Below are positions 35,123-53,649 of a DNA stretch of 64,000 nucleotides, piece after piece. This DNA comes from Pelosinus propionicus DSM 13327 (GTDB lineage: Bacteria > Bacillota > Negativicutes > DSM-13327), in assembly GCF_900114615.1 (NCBI RefSeq), contig NZ_FOTS01000026.1:1-64000 (forward strand), written 5' to 3'. Each line of letters opens with the position of its first letter. Position 1 is the first letter of the stretch. The notes under the pieces were generated by a model. That model was not told the origin of the DNA, did not search any database, and saw only the letters and a program-made list of their open reading frames with translations. A program made the position numbers and the translations under genes.

Positions 35123-35860
35123 TTATTCTTGAAAGGCTGCATTATGAAACCATACATGTCCTAACTGCTGTTTGTTTCTACCTCGATTTTTCCTTTCTCG
35201 TACGGGTTTTGCTGGAATTCCAGCTACAAACGTGTTTGGATCCACACTTTTGGTTACTACCGATCTTGCAGCGACTACTGCTTGTTCACCTACCACTATA
35301 CCTGGCAATAACATGGAATGAGAGAAAACTTTAGCAAAGTGCTCTACTTTCACCGGTGCATAAATTCTCTTTTCGTGATTGTGTTCAAGATGTGAATGCG
35401 TGTAAATTTCCACCTTTTCAGTTAATGTTACAAAATTGCCAAGAGTAATTCCTCCTTTGCCATCGAGGAATACTTCACGATTTAGGAACACATCATCGCC
35501 GATTTCGATATTATGACCAAAATTAAAACGTACACCCTCCATGGCGATGAAATTTTTCCCACATTTTTTAAATAATTTTTGGGCGAGAATACGACGAAAG
35601 GGGACCGCAAAATTAGTAATTAAACTAAGCGGCAATTTGTCAAATATCTCCCAGAGTAAATGCAAGTATTTCTGTTCCATTGTAAGAGGTAGAACCTTAA
35701 TTTGGGGCAAATATTCGTCGTATAATTTAAAGTCATCAAATAATTCCTTGGGAAATAAATGTGTTGCGTTTATTAATTCTAAAATTGAGTAGGTTTTTTT
35801 CTCATCTAATACGCTTTGAACGATGGATTCAATAGTCGACAGCTTATTCTCAATATTCAT
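35123..35860 (-). CDS. Hexapeptide-repeat acyltransferase (maltose acetyltransferase-like)
   Basis: The ATG at 35860 follows TGGAGGT; the frame extends further upstream without a ribosome site. The 245-residue protein has a helical N-terminal part (residues 1-110) and a left-handed beta-helix (about 125-230) with hexapeptide-like repeats such as IEIGDDVFLNREVFLDG and GIVVGEQAVVAARSVVTK, plus the His in THSHLEHN that resembles the catalytic region of O-acetyltransferases. It probably acetylates a sugar or thiogalactoside-like acceptor. The N-terminal region is longer than in typical maltose acetyltransferases. Confidence 0.8.
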   Translation of the reverse strand: MNIENKLSTIESIVQSVLDEKKTYSILELINATHLFPKELFDDFKLYDEYLPQIKVLPLTMEQKYLHLLWEIFDKLPLSLITNFAVPFRRILAQKLFKKCGKNFIAMEGVRFNFGHNIEIGDDVFLNREVFLDGKGGITLGNFVTLTEKVEIYTHSHLEHNHEKRIYAPVKVEHFAKVFSHSMLLPGIVVGEQAVVAARSVVTKSVDPNTFVAGIPAKPVRERKNRGRNKQQLGHVWFHNAAFQE

Positions 35861-35985
35861 AAATACCTCCAAGCTATATAGATATCGAATATGAAAGTGA
35901 TCTTCCATTAACCTTAACACGGAGAACATTCACTTTGGCATCACGATTATAATCCATAGAAATGCGTTATTCTTTTGTATCCTTT

Positions 35986-38085
35986 TTAAGACACTTTAAA
36001 TTCGGATACCAAATTATATAGACGATCGGAGATCTCGACCAATTGTTTGGTAGAATCAACAATTGCCTGCATTCCAGCGGCCTGTTCTTCTACGGCAGCT
36101 GCCACTTGCTGTGTGGAAGCAGATGTCTGTTCTGTAATTGCAGCAGCATTTTCTATATCTGCCATAGTATATTGCACCTCTTCGTTCATGATGCTTGCAG
36201 CGGAAGATACGTCATCGACAACCATAATAATCTCGCCGACAGTCTTTTCGATATCGTCAAAATGAGCACCAGCCTGAATGGCAATTTCCATACTATCGGT
36301 AATTTCCTGCGAACCCTTATTCATACTCTCGGTTATGGAGGCAATCTGTTCCTGAATACCGTTGATAAGCTGAGCTATTTGCTGGGCCGCGCCACCTGAC
36401 TGTTCAGCCAGTTTTCTAACTTCATCTGCGACAACGGCAAATCCGCGACCAGCTTCACCTGCTCTGGCTGCCTCAATAGCAGCGTTAAGAGCCAACAGAT
36501 TCGTCTGGCCGGCAATGCCAGTAATGACTTCAATAATGTTGCCAATTTCGGAGGACTGTGCTAATAGCAGTTGACTTTCTTGTAAGTTGCTGTTGTTATG
36601 CTTTACGAATACGCTCATACTTTCCACTGTTTGTTTTACGGATTGAAGACCGATGGAGCTTACATCCTGTGATCTTTTAGCGACTTGAAGCATTTCATGA
36701 CATTTGTCAGTAACTGTTTTTCCGGACTCACCTACTTGCTTAGTCTTATTGGCAGCGTCTGATACATGGGCTGCCTGTTGATCGGCACCTTGAGCCAGCG
36801 CCTGCATTGTCGTCGCTACTTCCTCTGTCATTTTGCCTGTATCCTGACAAGCGTCGGCAACGTCACGGGAAAGACGCTTTATCTTTTCCGATTCATCGGT
36901 GATATTATTTACCACTCCCCGCAAGGTTGAGACGGTCTTACTGAAGGCATAAGCCAGCCTGCCAATTTCGTCTTGAGAGTCAATTTGGAGGGAGCCAGTT
37001 AAATCTCCGGCAGCCACTTGGTCAGCAAACTTGCTGAGTTGGCTGAAAAGGCGGCCAATAGCCAAGTAAATGACGATAGACATGAAAACGATGACAGCCA
37101 CTGCGATCAACAGCATCATTGTAAGTATTTTATTTGCTGACGCGAAAAGCTCATCTTCGAAAACAACATTAGCTACTGTCCAGCCTGCTATTGGAATGGG
37201 GTTATAAAAAACAATTTTTTTATCTGTTCCATCAGTATAGCGGAATATGCCGGGTTTGCCTCCGGCAATCAGTTCGCCAAGTTTACGGATATTTTCATTA
37301 TCAATATTTGATATTTTTTCTTTCATAGCCCATTCTGAGTTGGGATGAACAACGAAGGTACCGTCTTGTGCCAAAAGAAATCCATAACCTTTTTCTCCAT
37401 ACTTCAACTGCTGGGTTATTTGCTGGATCGTTTCAATGGTCAAACTCGCGCCAGCGCCAGCTGTTACGTTTCCTTGATTATCTTTTCGATAGGCAATCAT
37501 AAGCACCATATTTTTATCATATGCCTGGGAATACGCCGGCTTATAAATAGCATCATAAGGAATACCACCAGTACGGGAAAATCGTTCTCCTGCTTCTAAT
37601 GCGCCGCCTTTTGCCCATGGATTAGTTTTTAATACTCCCGCTTTCACATCATAATAACGGGCTGTCAGTTTACTTAAAGCTTCAGGATTGCTGTATTCCT
37701 GAGGTTCTAAAGAGTTGACGATATGCAGAGCTGCATATTGGTTAGGATATGCTTCATTAATAAATTTCCAACGGGATAGCAGAAGCTCATCAATCAGTTT
37801 TATGGATTCATCCTCCCGTTTAAGATCAAGTTGTGGATTGGTCATTAAGATCCGCGCGACCATCGGACTTGCAGCTGTTTCACGTACTTCACCAAGCCGC
37901 CCGGTCAACCAAGTGTTCATATGGTCGGCCGCTTCGCCGGTTCTAAGTACCATAGACTCAGTTAATTCCGATTCAATTACCTTGTGGAACTGCCAATAAG
38001 CAACCCCGGTCAAAGAGAGTAAACCAATAATAATCACTGGTAATATTATTGCTAGCAGTTTAAATTTAAAAGACAAGTTTTTCAT
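35986..38085 (-). CDS. Methyl-accepting chemotaxis protein with dCache-type sensor
   Basis: The 699-residue receptor has an N-terminal membrane segment (about 10-30), an external double-Cache-like sensor (about 35-310), a second membrane segment (about 325-345), HAMP, and a long cytoplasmic signalling domain. The hairpin tip [20 protein letters not shown] (seen in two parts) near residue 550 is the CheA/CheW contact. No C-terminal pentapeptide is visible. It probably senses a small organic compound and signals to the chemotaxis kinase. It is encoded downstream of the RraA-PilZ gene on the same strand, about 110 bases away. Confidence 0.9.
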
Positions 38086-38195: not shown

Positions 38196-39206
38196 CTAAT
38201 ACCCAATATCCAAGCATTCTAGTCTCCCGAACTGCGAATGACGATATATTACATGATCCAATATTGCCCTTACCTCCTCAGCTATGTCCACAAACTCACA
38301 GCCAAAGTTGTTATACTGCTGCCAGGTGACGTTTGCGACAATATTAATATTTCCTAGTTCTTTAGACAAACACAGTCGTATTTGCGAAAGAATCTCTAAT
38401 GGCTGCTCTACTTGCAGTAATATTCCATCCATACTCATATTAATTGCAGTGGCATGTATGGGTTCAGCAGAGCCTTTGATAATAATGGTTACAGGTGCAT
38501 CGACATTGACACGAGGAGAATTTCGATTATCATTTATGATAACAGCTCGTCTTGCTTTAAGAGCTTCCTCGATCCACATACGGTCCAAAGTCCCTTTTTC
38601 GATGTCGTTCATGATCTTCTGTTCCACGCGAATCTTATTTTTGGATTGTATCAGCAAATCATCAGCATCACGGGGATTAATGACGACAATCCCATCTTCG
38701 TCACCAACCAAGATATCACCAGGATTCACAACAACTCCGCCACAAGTCACAGGCACATTGATTTTCCCAGGTCGGTCTTTATAAGACATAGTCAGGGCGG
38801 TACCTGCCGCATAGATGGGTACATCCATTCTTCTCAATGCTCCGATATCACGTACAGCGCCATCAATAATAAATCCGCCAATGCCTCTTTGTTTGGACCA
38901 CAAAGCCAGCAGCTTTCCCATAACAGGATTAGTCAAGTCACCTTGAGCATCCACTACCAAAACATCTCCAGGTTGTGCGAGGTCAAGTGCTTTCTGAAGC
39001 AGTAGATTATCATCAGGATGTGACTTAACGGTAAAAGCTGGTCCAAGCAGCGGTAGATTGTTAATTGGTCGAATTGTAGCGTTCATGCATGACATGCGGT
39101 TCATATTGTCGGCGATAGCAGCTGATGGCATTCCGACAAAAGCATCAATTAGTTTTCGGGGAGGCCGATTTATGCTAGTAAAAATATACAATCCTTCATT
39201 TGACAT
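38196..39206 (-). CDS. RraA-like (HMG aldolase family) protein fused to a PilZ c-di-GMP domain
   Basis: The 336-residue protein has two parts. Residues 1-215 form an RraA/4-hydroxy-4-methyl-2-oxoglutarate aldolase-like domain: PGDVLVVDAQGD near 79, IIDGAVRDIGALRR with the Arg-Asp metal-site pair at 119-120, and PGDILVGDEDGIVVINP near 162. Residues 222-325 form a PilZ domain with both c-di-GMP motifs: RxxxR (R228-N-S-P-R232) and NxSxxG (N256-M-S-M-D-G261), followed by ANVTWQQYNNFGCEF. I know of no described RraA-PilZ fusion. The simplest reading is an aldolase, decarboxylase or RNase E-inhibitor-like fold whose activity or partner choice is set by c-di-GMP. The start follows GGAGTGA. It is followed by a chemoreceptor gene. 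Confidence 0.85.
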   Translation of the reverse strand: MSNEGLYIFTSINRPPRKLIDAFVGMPSAAIADNMNRMSCMNATIRPINNLPLLGPAFTVKSHPDDNLLLQKALDLAQPGDVLVVDAQGDLTNPVMGKLLALWSKQRGIGGFIIDGAVRDIGALRRMDVPIYAAGTALTMSYKDRPGKINVPVTCGGVVVNPGDILVGDEDGIVVINPRDADDLLIQSKNKIRVEQKIMNDIEKGTLDRMWIEEALKARRAVIINDNRNSPRVNVDAPVTIIIKGSAEPIHATAINMSMDGILLQVEQPLEILSQIRLCLSKELGNINIVANVTWQQYNNFGCEFVDIAEEVRAILDHVIYRHSQFGRLECLDIGY

Positions 39207-39593
39207 AAATACATCACTCCATTCTTAGCTTTAATATAGTTATAAACAAAACCAACCACGTAGCTGACTGACATTTGAGCTTTCCTGCGAAACACCAGTT
39301 TGATATCAAAATGTTTTTACCTTTAGACCTAATGGTTTGCATTCTTACTTTGGCTTTAGTTCGCCTATGGAATAGTATTAAAAACGCCATTATTGTACAA
39401 AATTTTCCAATGATATTTTTACTGTAATGTATTTGTATATAAAATACAATTGACTTAACAAAAATGTAATTTATTATTAATGTGGACACGGAACAGGTTG
39501 GTTGTTCCAAAAGGTAGAAGAGGCAGAAAATCAAAGTACAGCAAATAGGACAGATTTTGTCTTATTTGCTGTATACTAAGTTGGGTGATAAAA
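39207..39593. other. Divergent intergenic region between RraA-PilZ and WYL genes
   Basis: No coding frame with a ribosome site was found; a 106-codon frame on the minus strand lacks one. The region is AT-rich and carries a TTGTAT-N5-ATACAA inverted repeat near 39431-39450 and the long operator-like hairpin at 39537-39573. Confidence 0.5.
39537..39573. promoter_or_regulatory. Operator-like inverted repeat upstream of WYL regulator
   Basis: TACAGCAAATA and TATTTGCTGTA form the outer arms, with GACA/TGTC inside and one mismatch. The right arm runs into a TATACT box. The position suggests autoregulation by the WYL protein. Confidence 0.55.
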
Positions 39594-40505
39594 ATGAAAA
39601 GCAGTCGAGTTTTCGAAATAACAACTATATTGCTTAACAAAGGATCGGTTACGGCGAGAGAACTCGCTAGCCGTTTTGGTGTTTCCACAAGGACAATTTA
39701 TCGGGATATCGATATACTCTCCTCCTCAGGTGTACCTGTATATATGAGCAAAGGGAATGGCGGAGGCATACATCTTCTAGAGGATTATACATTGAATAGA
39801 ACCATTTTTTCGGAGGGGGAAAGTGAAAACCTGCTGATGGCGATCAAAACGCTACAGGCAACTCAATATCCAGACTTAGATGCTGCTCTTGAAAAAATGG
39901 GAGCAATATTCAAGAAGATTTCAAATCATGATTGGGTTGAAGTCGATTTTTCGCCATGGGCAAGTTTGCCGAATGAGCAAAACAAATTTAATGACATAAA
40001 GCGGGCTATGTTAAATAGGAATGTCATTCAATTCGGCTATGTGAACGGAGAAGGTCATCAAAGCTTTCGACAGGCAGAACCGGAGAAGCTTATATTCAAA
40101 AATAATGCATGGTATCTATTAGCCTTCTGCCGACAGCATCAGGAGCACAGAACCTTTCGAATATCCAGACTGAAAAAGCTGGAGGTATTAACGGAAAATT
40201 TTGAGAAAAAAGTACTGCCAAGAGCAAAAGTAAAAGAGGGCAGCTCTGCTCGGCAGCCTCTAATTGTGTTGAAGCTTTGCTTTAAGGCGCAAGTTATAAA
40301 CCGATTATATGATTATTTTGATGACTCGTTTCTGACTCCTAATGTCGACGGGAGTGTTACTTTAGTGGCAGAGTTACCTGAGGGGGAATGGCTATACAGT
40401 TATATCTTATCATTTGGCAGTTCGGTAGAGGTAATTGAACCGAAATCTATGCGTAAGATCATTGCAGAAAGAATACGACAAGCATTAGAACTTTATGCGC
40501 GATAA
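39594..40505 (+). CDS. YafY/WYL-domain transcriptional regulator
   Basis: The ATG at 39594 follows GGGTGA. The 303-residue protein has an N-terminal DeoR-like helix-turn-helix (GSVTARELASRFGVSTRTIYRD, seen as ARELASRFGVSTRTIYRD) and a central WYL domain (residues about 130-205) with the WYLLAFCRQHQEHRTFRISR core, plus a C-terminal WCX extension. WYL domains bind small ligands or nucleic acid and often react to DNA damage or metabolic signals. It is divergent from the RraA-PilZ gene. Confidence 0.88.
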   Translation: MKSSRVFEITTILLNKGSVTARELASRFGVSTRTIYRDIDILSSSGVPVYMSKGNGGGIHLLEDYTLNRTIFSEGESENLLMAIKTLQATQYPDLDAALEKMGAIFKKISNHDWVEVDFSPWASLPNEQNKFNDIKRAMLNRNVIQFGYVNGEGHQSFRQAEPEKLIFKNNAWYLLAFCRQHQEHRTFRISRLKKLEVLTENFEKKVLPRAKVKEGSSARQPLIVLKLCFKAQVINRLYDYFDDSFLTPNVDGSVTLVAELPEGEWLYSYILSFGSSVEVIEPKSMRKIIAERIRQALELYAR

Positions 40506-40701: not shown

Positions 40702-40744
40702 CATTCTGACGCAAGATTTGACTAGAAAGGAATCACTAAAAACA

Positions 40745-42292
40745 ATGATAAATAAAAATGTTTGGCTCTGTATAACAATCATTTTCGGGGTGGCTGGCGT
40801 ACTCATGTTTTCTTATTTGGGATTTCATCCTCTATTGGACCCAGATGAACCGGTATATGCTGAAACCGCTCGCGAAATGCTGCAGTTTCATGATTTCATA
40901 TCTCCTCGAATCTATGGAGAATTTTGGTATGACAAACCGCCGATGTATTATTGGCTGGTTGCAGTGGCATTTAAAATCTTTGGAACAGGTGAGTTTGCTG
41001 CGCGTTTTCCTTCCGCCTTTTTTGCAGTAGGCGGAAGTCTTCTAGCCTATTTATCCGGCCGGAAACTTTTCAACGAGCGCGCCGGATTTCTTGGTGCCTT
41101 GGTATTGGCCACAAGTCTGGAGTACTTTTATTTAGGTAATGCAGCAGTTACGGATATGACATTGACTTTTTTTCTTATGGCAGCACTGCTGTCATTTCTT
41201 CACCGAAAATACTATCTTCTATACGGATTCGCTGCTCTTGCAGTAGTGACGAAGGGGCCGGTTGCTATTTTCTTTTGTGCCGTGATTATTGGACTGCATC
41301 TAATTACGACAGGTTCTCTTAAAACGGTAAAGAGTATGAAACTTATAAGTGGTGCTGCGCTTTTTGCAGTCATTGCTTTGCCTTGGTATGTGGCAATGTA
41401 CTTTATCCATGGCATGGCTTTTATAGACACATTTTTAGGATTTCATAATGTTACACGTTTTTTGCAGCCTGAGCACGCGTCAGGGACGTTATGGTATTAC
41501 TATATTCCTGTGTTAGTTCTGGGGTTCTTCCCTTGGACAGCTTTTTTAGGCCAGGCCTTGCTTGCAGGGGGAAAAGAAAAAGGAGAATATCGTAGCACCT
41601 GTATTTTTTTATGCATCTGGGCAGCAATAGTATTTGGATTCTTTTCACTGTCCCAGACGAAGTTAATCTCGTATATTCTGCCAATGTATCCACCCTTAGC
41701 GATGCTGGTTGGCTACTATTTGGATAAAGCATGGACAGAAGAACGTTATAAGGCGCTAAAAAGCTCTGCTATTATTTTTGCAGTTGTTGCCTCATTCTTG
41801 ATTGCAGGTTTGTTTTATGCAGGAAGGGTGGTTACAGCAGAAATGATGTTTTCAGTGAAGGTACTAGCGGGAATTTTATCGCTGCTGACCGTTTATGTTC
41901 TCGTTCAGAGCTTTTGCCATAAATTTCGTGCTGTGATGGTCTCTTATGTCCTGGGAATGATTATATTTACAGGTTTTTTAATGATACAAACCCTTCCCCT
42001 TGTTACACCGTCGCTTTCTGTAAAACAGTTTGTTAAAGAATTTAAGCAGCAGTATGACGGGCAAGCTCCCGTTTATATTGCAAGATTTTATCAGCCCGGT
42101 TTCATGTATTATAGCGGTATGGCAGGTACTGAACTAGATTCTGATAAATTAGAGGCAACGATTCTGGGCAAAACGGATAAGGCTTACTTTATTGTACAAA
42201 AAAAGAAGTATGAGAGGTTGTCTCCTACAACGTTAAGTAAGCTGCGTGTATTGACAGTTCAAGAAGATAAGGTCTTTTTTACTCGAGATTGA
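40745..42292 (+). CDS. GT39/ArnT-like lipid-linked glycosyltransferase (copy 1)
   Basis: The ATG at 40745 is the best methionine start, although the AAAGGA site is somewhat far (13 bases); a TTG at 40718 is possible. The about 515-residue protein has about 12 membrane segments and the GT-C fold signature of the PMT/ArnT family: the first external loop motif LLDPDEPVYAETAREM near residue 30 and GEFWYDKPPMYYWL near 60. Members transfer a sugar from a polyprenyl phosphate carrier to lipid A, proteins or cell-wall polymers. It is followed 26 bases later by a paralogue in the same unit. The shared promoter with a YdjC-type deacetylase suggests an envelope-modification role. Confidence 0.85.
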   Translation: MINKNVWLCITIIFGVAGVLMFSYLGFHPLLDPDEPVYAETAREMLQFHDFISPRIYGEFWYDKPPMYYWLVAVAFKIFGTGEFAARFPSAFFAVGGSLLAYLSGRKLFNERAGFLGALVLATSLEYFYLGNAAVTDMTLTFFLMAALLSFLHRKYYLLYGFAALAVVTKGPVAIFFCAVIIGLHLITTGSLKTVKSMKLISGAALFAVIALPWYVAMYFIHGMAFIDTFLGFHNVTRFLQPEHASGTLWYYYIPVLVLGFFPWTAFLGQALLAGGKEKGEYRSTCIFLCIWAAIVFGFFSLSQTKLISYILPMYPPLAMLVGYYLDKAWTEERYKALKSSAIIFAVVASFLIAGLFYAGRVVTAEMMFSVKVLAGILSLLTVYVLVQSFCHKFRAVMVSYVLGMIIFTGFLMIQTLPLVTPSLSVKQFVKEFKQQYDGQAPVYIARFYQPGFMYYSGMAGTELDSDKLEATILGKTDKAYFIVQKKKYERLSPTTLSKLRVLTVQEDKVFFTRD

Positions 42293-42318
42293 TGCGTTAT
42301 TTTTATGGGAGGACTATT

Positions 42319-43974
42319 ATGAATGTAAAAACATCTGATGTCATAACTGATTTGATACATTCTAAGCAAAAGTACTTGGGAATATTCCTACTTTCCTTTT
42401 TCTTTTATATGTTTTTCAGTCATATGATGCCTATTACCGATCCCGTTGAATCCAACTATGCCCTTACAGCAAAAGAAATGGTGCTGTCAGCAGATTGGAT
42501 CTCACCAAGGATATATGGGAATATCTGGTTTGATAAGCCGGTGTTTTTCTATTGGACTACAGCCATAGCTTTTCAACTGTTTGGGTTTTCCGAATGGGCG
42601 GCACGAATTCCACCTGCATTTTTTGCTTCTGTTGGTCTAGTGCTAATGTATTGGTTTACGCTTAAAATCGTTAAACCAAGGGTAGCTATTTTAGCAGTTT
42701 TAGTTATGGGGACCTCGTTTGAATATATTGTATTGGCAAAGCTGATTGTTACAGATATGGTGTTTTTTGTATTCAATTGTGCAGCCCTAGGATTTTTTTA
42801 TCTGGGGTATGTGAATCTAGATGGCAGCAAGAAGAGATGGTATCAGTTTGGATATGTTAGCATGGCTCTAGCTGTATTGACAAAAGGGCCGATCGGTGTT
42901 CTGCTGCCTGGTCTAGTTATATTGGTTTTTATAGCTGTGCAGCGTAAGTGGTCTCAAGGAAAAGAATGGTTCATACCGTCGGGGATTTTTCTTTTTGCAG
43001 CTGTGGCGCTGCCCTGGTATGCTGCGATGTATGCCATGCATGGCACAGAATTTATCAATAGCTTTTTCGGCGTACACAATTATCTTCGAGCAACCGTTTC
43101 AGAACATCCAAAGGATAATGTGAGCTATTACTATATTGCGGTATTTATACTCAGTATGCTGCCTTGGTCTGCTTTAGCCATAAAAGCATTGATACAGGGA
43201 TGTAGGGACTTTAGGTCTCAATCCTCTCCGCTGCTGCTGTTTCTTTTTTTGTGGACAGCGGCCTACTTTGGCTTTTATTCACTAATGGCTACCAAATATT
43301 TGACCTACACATTCCCTATTGTCTTTCCGGTGTCAATTATAACTGCGATCCACCTTGAGAAAATGCTTGCAGAAGGCAAGAAGGCGGCAATTGTCTATTG
43401 GGCAGTGGTTCCTTTCGTATTGCTGCTGTTAGTATATATGATCGTGGCTTATCGTTATCTGGCGGGATTAGGACTTATCATAACAGTTGGTAGTCTGCTG
43501 CTACTTCTGCTGCTATTTTTCTATAGATCAAATCGGCGTACGGCAGCTGATTTTTTCAAATTGCTTTGTTGGTGTCAATTAGGAGCATATATCATACTTT
43601 GCCTATTTGTGTTTCCCGCTATGGCTCAAAGCCGATCAGGAAAAGAGATTGCAGAAAGCATTGCTGGCATGGGAAAAAGAGAGATTGGCATGTATGAGTT
43701 TTATAGCACATCTGAAGTGTTTTATAGCGGCAATATCCCAGTAAAGATTGAAAAATCAAGTGTGCTGCCATTACACCAGCCTGGAGAGATGGACTGGTCA
43801 AGTAAATATACCATGCCGATCCAAGGGCTAGTCGGTTTTATGGCGCAGTCCTCAAATAGTCTAATTGTAGTACCTGATACGCAAAAAAATCTGTTTCTAG
43901 TAGAAACAGATAATTTCAAGCCTAAACTGATAAAGAGTGATAACGGATGGAATTATTATTATTTGAATCACTGA
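42319..43974 (+). CDS. GT39/ArnT-like lipid-linked glycosyltransferase (copy 2)
   Basis: The ATG at 42319 follows GGGAGGA at good spacing. The 551-residue protein is a clear paralogue of the preceding one, with the same membrane layout and matching motifs (ITDPVESNYALTAKEM near residue 38; GNIWFDKPVFFYWT near 69). The first acidic residue of copy 1's DPDEP motif is Val here (DPVES) while the Glu is kept, so catalytic behaviour or acceptor choice may differ. Both are co-transcribed. The N-terminus is about 15 residues longer than in copy 1. There is no strong terminator before the small heat-shock gene 160 bases later. Confidence 0.85.
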   Translation: MNVKTSDVITDLIHSKQKYLGIFLLSFFFYMFFSHMMPITDPVESNYALTAKEMVLSADWISPRIYGNIWFDKPVFFYWTTAIAFQLFGFSEWAARIPPAFFASVGLVLMYWFTLKIVKPRVAILAVLVMGTSFEYIVLAKLIVTDMVFFVFNCAALGFFYLGYVNLDGSKKRWYQFGYVSMALAVLTKGPIGVLLPGLVILVFIAVQRKWSQGKEWFIPSGIFLFAAVALPWYAAMYAMHGTEFINSFFGVHNYLRATVSEHPKDNVSYYYIAVFILSMLPWSALAIKALIQGCRDFRSQSSPLLLFLFLWTAAYFGFYSLMATKYLTYTFPIVFPVSIITAIHLEKMLAEGKKAAIVYWAVVPFVLLLLVYMIVAYRYLAGLGLIITVGSLLLLLLLFFYRSNRRTAADFFKLLCWCQLGAYIILCLFVFPAMAQSRSGKEIAESIAGMGKREIGMYEFYSTSEVFYSGNIPVKIEKSSVLPLHQPGEMDWSSKYTMPIQGLVGFMAQSSNSLIVVPDTQKNLFLVETDNFKPKLIKSDNGWNYYYLNH

Positions 43975-51318: not shown

Positions 51319-51407
51319 ATGCTGCCTTGTGATTCAAAGTTGCATTTCTATGCGCATTGACCAAACAGGTTATTGGGTGTAGAATAAACAAGTATTAAAA
51401 AGAATAT

Positions 51408-51486
51408 TTTGGCAAACCAATTGAAAAGTTGGGACGCAAAGCTATGGGTCTAAAGACGAGTTGTCTATGATTGCCAGGTTGCTAGT
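51408..51486 (+). promoter_or_regulatory. Cyclic-di-GMP-I (GEMM-I) riboswitch
   Basis: The RNA contains the conserved parts of the class in order: GGCAAACCA, the GGGACGCAAAGC core, GGGTCTAA, and TTGCCAGGTTGC with the tetraloop-receptor region between. The aptamer is followed by a terminator at 51519-51553 and the chemoreceptor ATG at 51628, so c-di-GMP is predicted to switch receptor expression at the level of transcription termination. The direction (on or off) cannot be settled by eye. Confidence 0.92.
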
Positions 51487-51553: not shown

Positions 51554-51627
51554 GCTGGATAAGGTAAGGCTCAATATAGTAAGTTGGTAATTTTGGCGAG
51601 AAGTGAAAATGGATGGAGGAATTTTTT

Positions 51628-53649
51628 ATGAATTTGTTTACATGGATGAAGAAAAGTATTCAGGTAAAGGTTACCGCTGTTTTAGTAATTGGACTATTAA
51701 TAACATTAAGCATTTTAGGGGTATGTAATTTCTATAATGCAAAAAGTATACTAGTTTCAGATGCTGAGGAAGATCTTGTTCATCGCGCAAATGCCTATGC
51801 TGAAGATATTGGGGCGTGGAAAGATACTCGTGAAATTGAGGTTTCGATACTGGCAACAAATCAAAGTGTTGTTAATGGAGACACACAGGGTGCTCTTGCT
51901 TATCTAAAAGAAGAGACCAAAAGAAATCCGATTTATTCACGGTTTTGGCTTGTTGATGCGAGGGGGCAATCCATTCACACATCAGGAGATCGGACAAATA
52001 TCGCTGATCGTGAATATTTTAAACAGGTCATGTCAACTGGCAAAGCGACAACGACCGATCCTATTATTTCTAAGGCTGACGGTAAATTGGTAGTATCTGT
52101 GGTTGCGCCAATCAAAAAAAATAATCAGATTATCGGTGCTCTTGGGGGCACAGTGCCTATTGATGCCCTCATTTCGCGCGTGAATGAAATTAAGATTGCA
52201 CAAAGCGGTTTTGCCTATGTCATTCAGGGTGATGGCTTAACCATCATTCATCCCGATAAAGAGCAAATCATGAAAACGAACATACTAAAAGATCCTAATG
52301 CAAATGATCAACTTAAAAGTGTAATGAATAAAATGATAAATGGAGAGAGTGGTACTGGTAATTACGTAGACGGCAGCATTACGAAGTACATCGCTTATGC
52401 TCCCATTCCAGGGACTCATTGGAGCTTAGGGATTAATGTACCGGAACAAGAAATTCTTGTAAAATTAGCTCCCTTTATACGAGCCTCACTCATTACAATT
52501 GGTTTGATTCTTCTTGTGGCTTGCGGTTTTGGTATTCTAGTTTCAAGGAATGTAACGAAGCCGATTGTAAGATTGAATAAAGCAATTGAGAAAATTGCAG
52601 CTGGTGACTTAACTTCACAAGTGGCTGTTCTAGGTATGACAGCAGAGCAGAGTGCAGAAGGCAAAGACGAATTAGATGCTATGGGGATTCATTTTGACAC
52701 TATGGCAAAAAAAATACGCAGCTTGGTTCAACAAATTGCTACTTCAGCAGAGCTGGTGGCAGCATCTTCGGAAGAACTCACGGCAAGCGCAGAGCAATCC
52801 TCTGTAGCTGCCAATCAAATAGCTGAAACAATAACGGAAGTATCTTCAGGCAGTACATTTCAGCTGCAAGCAGTAGATGCTGCAGCCGATGCTGTTGAAA
52901 AGATGTCTGCTAGTATTCAGCAGGTAGCTGCTCACTCTGGAAATGTCGCAGCTACTGCTGAAAAAACTGCACTTGCTGCTCAAAATGGTGGCAAGGCAAT
53001 CGAAGATACGACAAAACAGATGGAAAATATTGAGATGACTGTGACCAACTCAGCGCAGGTAGTTGAAAAACTTGGCAATCGTTCCAAAGAAATCGGTCAA
53101 ATTGTCGATACTATTTCTGGAATTGCTGGTCAAACAAATCTTTTGGCATTGAATGCTGCAATTGAGGCGGCACGTGCTGGTGAACAAGGCAGAGGATTTG
53201 CAGTGGTAGCGGAAGAAGTTCGTAAACTTGCAGAACAATCTCAAGATGCAGCAAAACACATTGCAGTGCTAATTGGCGAAATTCAAGGTGATACTGAAAA
53301 AGCAGTTAACGTAATGGCCGAAGGGACGAATGAAGTCAAGCGAGGTTCAGAAGTAGTTCATACAGCAGGTAAGGCTTTCGGGGAAATATTGAATTTAATT
53401 GAACAGGTTTCCGATCAAATCCGGGATATTTCTGCTGCAATTCAGCAGGTAGCAGGTGGCAGTGAGCAAATTGTTACCTCTATTAAAGAAATCGATAAAA
53501 TAAGCGGTAAGACAGCAGAATACACTCAGACTGTTTCTGCATCGGCTCAAGAACAATCAGCATCAATGGAAGAGATTGCGGCATCTAGTGAAGCGTTAGC
53601 CAAAATGTCTGAAGAACTTCGCTCTATTATCGCTCAATTTAGAGTTTAA
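51628..53649 (+). CDS. Methyl-accepting chemotaxis protein under c-di-GMP riboswitch control
   Basis: The ATG at 51628 follows GGAGGA. The 673-residue receptor has a membrane segment (about 13-35), an external dCache-type sensor (about 40-280), a second membrane segment (about 290-312), HAMP, and a full MCP signalling domain with [20 protein letters not shown] at the tip near residue 505. The dCache motif region includes [16 protein letters not shown] and DREYFKQV, typical of small organic ligand sensing. Its expression is gated by the upstream GEMM-I riboswitch, linking chemotaxis to the motile or sessile state. Confidence 0.92.

Follow-up and report, generated by a model that had tools for sequence, protein, structure and literature searches.

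The PilZ targets characterised so far are mostly transcription factors, components of flagella or pili, and polysaccharide synthases. In a recent review of the effectors of c-di-GMP neither an aldolase nor a metabolic enzyme is mentioned (PMC12564702), and our search of an open-access library of 5.4 million papers found no PilZ target that is a metabolic aldolase, no relevant paper in which PilZ is paired with a dimethylmenaquinone methyltransferase or an HMG aldolase, and no earlier account of an RraA-PilZ fusion. Such a fusion is encoded in Pelosinus propionicus DSM 13327, within the 64,000 nucleotides of DNA analysed here (the window).

The N-terminal half resembles the HMG/CHA aldolase/oxaloacetate decarboxylase of P. 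putida (3NOJ), in which Arg123 is essential, metal is bound by the acidic residues Asp124 and Glu199, and phosphate activation is strongly lowered by the G144V substitution (PMC5065237). The fold is common to residues 4-206 of the fusion and the equivalents of Arg123, Asp124, Lys147 and Glu199 are kept, whereas the C-terminal PilZ domain has no counterpart in 3NOJ and the position of Asp102 is occupied by Glu in most fusions and by Lys in the window. RraA, the regulator of RNase E activity, also has its core fold in common with the fusion, but the latter belongs to a longer subfamily, scores below the equivalog cut-offs and lies in an unrelated gene context. In PRK07028 (hexulose-6-phosphate synthase-RraA) and PRK12764 (fumarylacetoacetate hydrolase-RraA) RraA is likewise joined to a second domain; there, however, the partner is another enzyme, while here it is a second-messenger receptor.

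On the PilZ side, MapZ, the CheR1 adaptor of P. aeruginosa, has the c-di-GMP motifs in common with the fusion but is a stand-alone PilZ protein, whereas here PilZ is joined to RraA and the link to a chemoreceptor is one suggested by genome context. The flagellar brake YcgR/MotI carries a C-terminal PilZ domain of similar fold; unlike it, the fusion has RraA and not YcgR-N as its N-terminal part, and does not lie in a flagellar cluster. Azospirillum Tlp1 and Azorhizobium Cbp1 also place c-di-GMP input near a chemoreceptor, although in them PilZ is inside the receptor protein and here it belongs to a separate, enzyme-like protein encoded alongside. The RraA-PilZ protein combines two known kinds of domain in a new way, and its linkage to chemoreceptor genes is unexpectedly strict.

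Results

Architecture of the fusion and its PilZ domain

A preliminary description of the window had reported one uninterrupted frame joining an RraA domain to a PilZ domain, and this is what we found: the gene (Table 1) has no internal stop, and both Pfam domains lie over their gathering cut-offs (PF03737, 154.6 bits against 24.5; PF07238, 49.3 bits against 22.5). Residues 3-218 belong to the PRK06201 subfamily, barely over its cut-off (NCBIfam PRK06201.1, 237.7 against 231), and the fusion misses the equivalog cut-offs for HMG/CHA aldolase (NCBIfam PRK09262, 144.6 against 179; ligK_PcmE, 123 against 304.5) as well as those for RraA (NCBIfam PRK09372, 87.5 against 136; TIGR02998, 43.1 against 241). 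An AlphaFold2 model, built from 27 window and locus sequences, recovered both folds with a mean pLDDT of 82.7 and a pTM of 0.60, the linker 225-228 being the weakest internal stretch by pLDDT. The best fold match of residues 4-206 is 3NOJ (32% identity), and E. coli RraA (1q5x) is matched with a Z of 17.6. From about residue 226 the model forms a beta-barrel with a C-terminal helix and matches PilZ structures, several of them c-di-GMP-bound; the structures matched include MapZ (PDB 5XLY).

Table 1. Features of the fusion locus and of the riboswitch locus, with positions in the window
Feature	Position	Strand	Evidence or remark
RraA-PilZ fusion gene, 336 aa	38196..39206	minus	single frame from ATG to TAG; orthologues
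RraA-like domain, residues 29-175	38682..39122	minus	PF03737 E 2.9e-45; fold match 3NOJ Z 25.4
Lys98, site of the active-site acid (Asp102 of 3NOJ)	38913..38915	minus	alignment
Arg119-Asp120 catalytic/metal pair	38847..38852	minus	intact in window; Cys-Asn in L064 and L065
PilZ domain, residues 227-321	38244..38528	minus	PF07238 E 6.9e-13; PilZ structure matches Z about 10-14.7
RxxxR motif RNSPR, residues 228-232	38511..38525	minus	read from DNA; invariant in 10/10 full-length fusions
NxSxxG motif NMSMDG, residues 256-261	38424..38441	minus	read from DNA; invariant in 10/10 full-length fusions
dCache chemoreceptor (MCP), 699 aa, group A	35986..38085	minus	MCPsignal 1e-41, dCache_1 3e-14
Hexapeptide-repeat acetyltransferase-like gene	35123..35929	minus	Hexapep below cut-off
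Divergent HTH-WYL regulator	39585..40505	plus	conserved neighbour in Pelosinus subclade
c-di-GMP-I riboswitch	51401-51486	plus	74.3 bits
dCache chemoreceptor gene behind riboswitch	51613-53649	plus	about 130 bp downstream of riboswitch

The two ligand motifs noted in the preliminary description are present and conserved in the orthologues, and the profile recognises the C-terminal part as PilZ. All five motif residues (R228, R232, N256, S258 and G261) are among the 29 invariant positions of 133 aligned columns, which by our own arithmetic has a chance probability of about 4e-4; between the window protein and fusions outside its subclade the identity over the linker-PilZ stretch is 44-55%, yet the motif residues do not vary. 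From profile, motifs and fold we infer a PilZ domain of the c-di-GMP-binding type, which would bind this ligand. The window genome holds 31 GGDEF matches against three PilZ matches, the latter being a YcgR-like protein in a flagellar-chemotaxis cluster (C34), the RraA-PilZ fusion and a 618-aa frame that matches weakly, so that the fusion makes up a notable share of the PilZ output of the genome. The c-di-GMP riboswitch of the preliminary description is also there, and it precedes a chemoreceptor gene other than the one beside the fusion; this arrangement is an independent suggestion of a control of chemoreception by c-di-GMP in this strain, at the RNA level.

Distribution and origin of the fusion

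Nine further full-length fusions were found in other assemblies, bringing the total to ten in six Negativicutes families as counted from the taxonomy of the genome labels; the carriers include Pelosinus fermentans UBA6563, an uncultured Pelosinus and Propionispora sp. 2/2-37. Both Pfam domains are over cut-off in all seven orthologous full-length fusions that were scanned. Unfused paralogues of the same genome stop close to the position at which PilZ starts, and a missed stop was therefore worth suspecting. An artefact, whether an assembly joint, a missed stop or frameshift, or a chance motif, is refuted by the occurrence in ten assemblies and six families, by the invariant motifs, and by profile and fold, and we give it practically no credence.

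A maximum-likelihood tree of RraA domains places the fused proteins in one clade (support 99/97), the internal branching order of which is poorly resolved. The clade also holds PilZ-less relatives from Sporomusa, Lucifera and a soil MAG (L079, L049, L080 and L051) and a truncated member, L073, from which the PilZ motif is gone. The C-terminal ends of L080 (RGAVVVQENS) and L079 (RGVVFPFEQNHKTSIE) resemble the fused proteins up to the PilZ start, as is expected after the loss of a PilZ domain, and the simplest reading of the tree and of these ends would be one fusion event followed by several PilZ losses. A profile of the fused C-terminal part (A4) gave no fusion beyond the Negativicutes among 398 genomes of the phylum, the matches being weak and in open frames of 126-217 aa. 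An exact-peptide scan of 84,980 species genomes, which is an insensitive method, encountered the fusion in Pelosinus and Propionispora alone, and the plasmid matches listed are RraA genes without PilZ.

Linkage to chemoreceptor genes and gene context

The chemoreceptor gene that the preliminary description had seen to follow the fusion lies 110 bp downstream on the same strand, and is one case of an association extending over the whole clade. A dCache chemoreceptor is located within 1.5 kb at 14 of 15 fusion-clade loci, whereas of 37 loci with other RraA paralogues one has such a neighbour (Fisher p 1e-10, the loci not being phylogenetically independent). At the exception, L068, the receptor is found two genes further on, and in L066 and L067 a single D-2-hydroxyacid dehydrogenase gene stands between receptor and fusion. 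With 55 receptor genes in genome G000, about 1% of its genes by our own estimate, such adjacency is not expected by chance, and this conserved linkage is the strongest contextual fact on the fusion.

The receptors belong to three ligand-domain groups, between which the alignments are short or weak, at about 20-37% identity. Group A receptors (window, L064, L065 and L074) are located downstream and group B receptors (L066, L067, L070 and L072) upstream, while those of group C lie downstream in L068 and upstream in L069, L071, L073, L079 and L080. Genome G092 holds group B and group C receptors together, and in G000 a B-like receptor is located elsewhere, away from RraA, which indicates that the groups are separate receptors and not a single one that has drifted. 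Ten receptors have 52% identity or more to the ligand domain of group C. Nine of them adjoin an RraA gene, with or without PilZ (in L068 at a distance of two genes), and the tenth has DUF441 and a distant RraA as neighbours.

In two genera a second, distant RraA and DUF441 were observed beside a group C chemoreceptor (L068, 7729-8884; L118, 1387-2560), so one receptor type is linked to RraA-type genes from more than one subfamily. Two broken genes were also seen beside receptors. In Sporomusa ovata DSM 2662 (G298) a frame change at about residue 125 splits the RraA gene by the group C receptor (L119, 4761-5500), and in G001 a frameshifted remnant of an RraA N-terminus is located directly downstream of a group B chemoreceptor (L110, 5345-5522).

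No terminator-like site was found between the fusion and chemoreceptor genes of the window, and a promoter scan gave no excess over shuffles; the two genes may be co-transcribed. The acetyltransferase-like gene, which is the conserved next gene in the Pelosinus subclade (L064, L065 and L074), may be on the same transcript. Elsewhere in the window two adjoining genes for large multi-pass membrane proteins (40718-43974, plus strand) look ArnT/PMT-glycosyltransferase-like by eye from their translation.

An SBF-family transporter is encoded downstream in nine clade loci, and Ldh_2 or DUF441 are rarer neighbours found in a few cases. An unfused RraA paralogue in the genome of the window (G000:C62) belongs to what looks like a catabolic operon (L077, 1896-16626), together with a citrate/DASS-type transporter, a 2-hydroxyacid dehydrogenase, a 2-oxoacid:ferredoxin oxidoreductase and an Amidohydro_2 enzyme. 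A dCache receptor lies a few genes past it, and this cluster may represent an organic-acid pathway. For the gene context of the fusion clade we would also infer an organic-acid theme.

The aldolase-type active site

By alignment to 3NOJ, R119-D120 of the fusion correspond to Arg123-Asp124, K143 to Lys147 and E195 to Glu199. The Arg-Asp metal site given in the preliminary description is indeed present, in the window as in every aligned fusion except L064 and L065, but the active site as a whole is not intact. Position 98, which is Glu in 24 of 24 aligned relatives outside the window subclade, is Lys in the window, L064 and L065; where other fusions have the loop GVTPAGPYKDGPGE, the window has GTALTMSYKDRPGK, and Met140 stands at the position equivalent to Gly144. 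Fusions outside the window subclade retain the catalytic set of Glu98, Arg119, Asp120, Lys143 and Glu195.

The catalytic motifs of these enzymes are, as Mazurkewich reportedly described in 2014, D-X20-R-D or G-X20-R-D-X2-E/D. That there are two catalytic motifs, and this much only, is confirmed in PMC5065237. With Lys98 and RDIGA the window protein conforms to neither of these two forms, and this, together with Lys98 itself and the rewritten loop, makes an aldolase/decarboxylase activity of the window protein doubtful. For the window subclade an impaired catalytic half is probable, considering the substitution of Lys98 for Glu/Asp and the altered loop, while for the fusions outside it the same activity is plausible from the residues retained.

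Erosion in the Pelosinus subclade of the window

Omega is mostly 0.1-0.3 in both halves of the fusion, which corresponds to purifying selection. The RraA half gives 0.22-0.27 in the window subclade against 0.12-0.15 in unsaturated comparisons of other fusions, and the adjacent receptor gives 0.06-0.07 in the window subclade; the branch leading to this subclade is long (0.35 in the RraA tree). Three genomes have an unbroken frame (79-80% identity) that preserves each of the five c-di-GMP motif residues. These complete PilZ motifs in the three full copies, and an omega that stays clearly under 1, argue against a gene that is simply dead.

Two further Pelosinus genomes have lost most of the gene. 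In G004 (L074, 9340-9633) an in-frame deletion removed most of RraA together with RxxxR, leaving a 97-aa ORF in which the first RraA residues are joined to the second half of PilZ, with the receptor gene intact alongside; in G003 (L128/L124, C1 at about 313-316 kb) nearly the whole fusion gene is deleted and the group A chemoreceptor is kept. Over its first 300 residues the receptor is 97-98% identical in these two genomes (98% in G003), and its retention after the deletion indicates a receptor that does without the fusion. Judged from these substitutions and deletions, the fusion of the window subclade appears to be in the course of being either lost or re-purposed.

Discussion

The computation yields directly a fusion with intact ligand motifs, a single origin and a conserved linkage to receptors. 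To account for these we propose, with a probability of roughly 0.45, that RraA-PilZ is a c-di-GMP-gated class II pyruvate aldolase/decarboxylase partnering a chemoreceptor, conserved elsewhere and decaying or re-purposed in the lineage of the window. In this mechanism the PilZ domain appended to an enzyme of the HMG/CHA-aldolase type would serve as the c-di-GMP receptor, the chemoreceptor would sense an extracellular compound, probably a carboxylate, and the co-located transporter, where present, would import it. The RraA half would then cleave or decarboxylate the compound, or a 2-oxo acid derived from it, by the metal/Arg pyruvate-enolate route, and c-di-GMP bound to PilZ would raise or lower this activity in such a way that catabolism tracks the switch between the motile and the sessile state. 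In the window subclade the protein may be decaying, or may act solely as a c-di-GMP-responsive binding protein. Ligand binding, the aldolase/decarboxylase chemistry, the allosteric coupling, the substrate and the sign of the regulation are the predicted elements of the scheme.

Several observations argue against gating. The low pTM of the model and the low pLDDT of the linker give no sign of a fixed interface between PilZ and the active site, and Sporomusa and Lucifera have lost PilZ but retain the RraA gene, the receptor and the transporter, so that PilZ is dispensable for the locus there. The eroded enzyme site of the window subclade and the large deletions in G003 and G004 also speak against a gated enzyme. 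The preliminary description's proposal of an aldolase/decarboxylase under second-messenger control therefore remains a good reading for the family, whose fusions outside the window subclade keep the catalytic set, and is weakened for the window copy by Lys98, by the rewritten neighbouring loop and by the loss of Arg-Asp in two sister sequences.

The main rival is an adaptor similar to MapZ, in which PilZ, mounted on an RraA oligomer, modulates the neighbouring chemoreceptor or the methylation machinery through c-di-GMP and the enzyme fold is a scaffold. It suits the eroded active site of the window better than a gated enzyme does, as the PilZ motifs are kept despite the catalytic loss in L064/L065 and Lys98 in the window. 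The linkage to three unrelated ligand-domain groups, on either side of the gene, also favours it, since the conserved partner is then a receptor and not a particular ligand, and there are precedents in the binding of CheR1 by MapZ (PMC12564702) and in the PilZ-containing chemoreceptor Cbp1 (PMC6454048). However, the same receptor linkage is found in the PilZ-less members L079, L080 and L119-L121, which ties the enzyme half to the receptor without PilZ; most fusions retain the full catalytic set, and the receptor outlives the fusion in G003 and G004. We consider such an adaptor rather unlikely.

An equally limited chance is given to a decaying relic in the Pelosinus subclade of the window, that is, a protein useful in the ancestor and now under relaxed constraint and loss, with no particular present function. 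The long subclade branch, the omega of the RraA half set beside that of the receptor, the loss of Arg-Asp in L064/L065 and the in-frame and near-complete deletions of G004 and G003 all agree with it, but omega stays far below 1 in both halves, three frames are intact and the five c-di-GMP motif residues are kept. Very improbable, finally, is the RNA-degradation regulator of the preliminary description, whose RraA half would inhibit an RNase under c-di-GMP control: the fold is common to E. coli RraA, but the best family is PRK06201, the closest fold that of the HMG/CHA aldolase 3NOJ, the enterobacterial RraA model scores far below its cut-off (43 against 241 bits), and the neighbours are transport, dehydrogenase and chemoreceptor genes.

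Returning to the gated enzyme, a further and more tentative step, possible but on balance unlikely, would be to regard these proteins as c-di-GMP effectors of a new class, in which a class II pyruvate aldolase/decarboxylase is under direct control of the messenger and the partner chemoreceptor follows the substrate or product of that enzyme; a single protein would then connect carbon catabolism with chemotaxis and with the choice between motile and sessile life in Negativicutes. The locus is a compact and testable system: among related species there are natural versions that are fused, that lack PilZ, that are altered at the catalytic site or that are deleted, with the same kind of receptor adjoining them. 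If the coupling is true, c-di-GMP would act directly on carbon flux.
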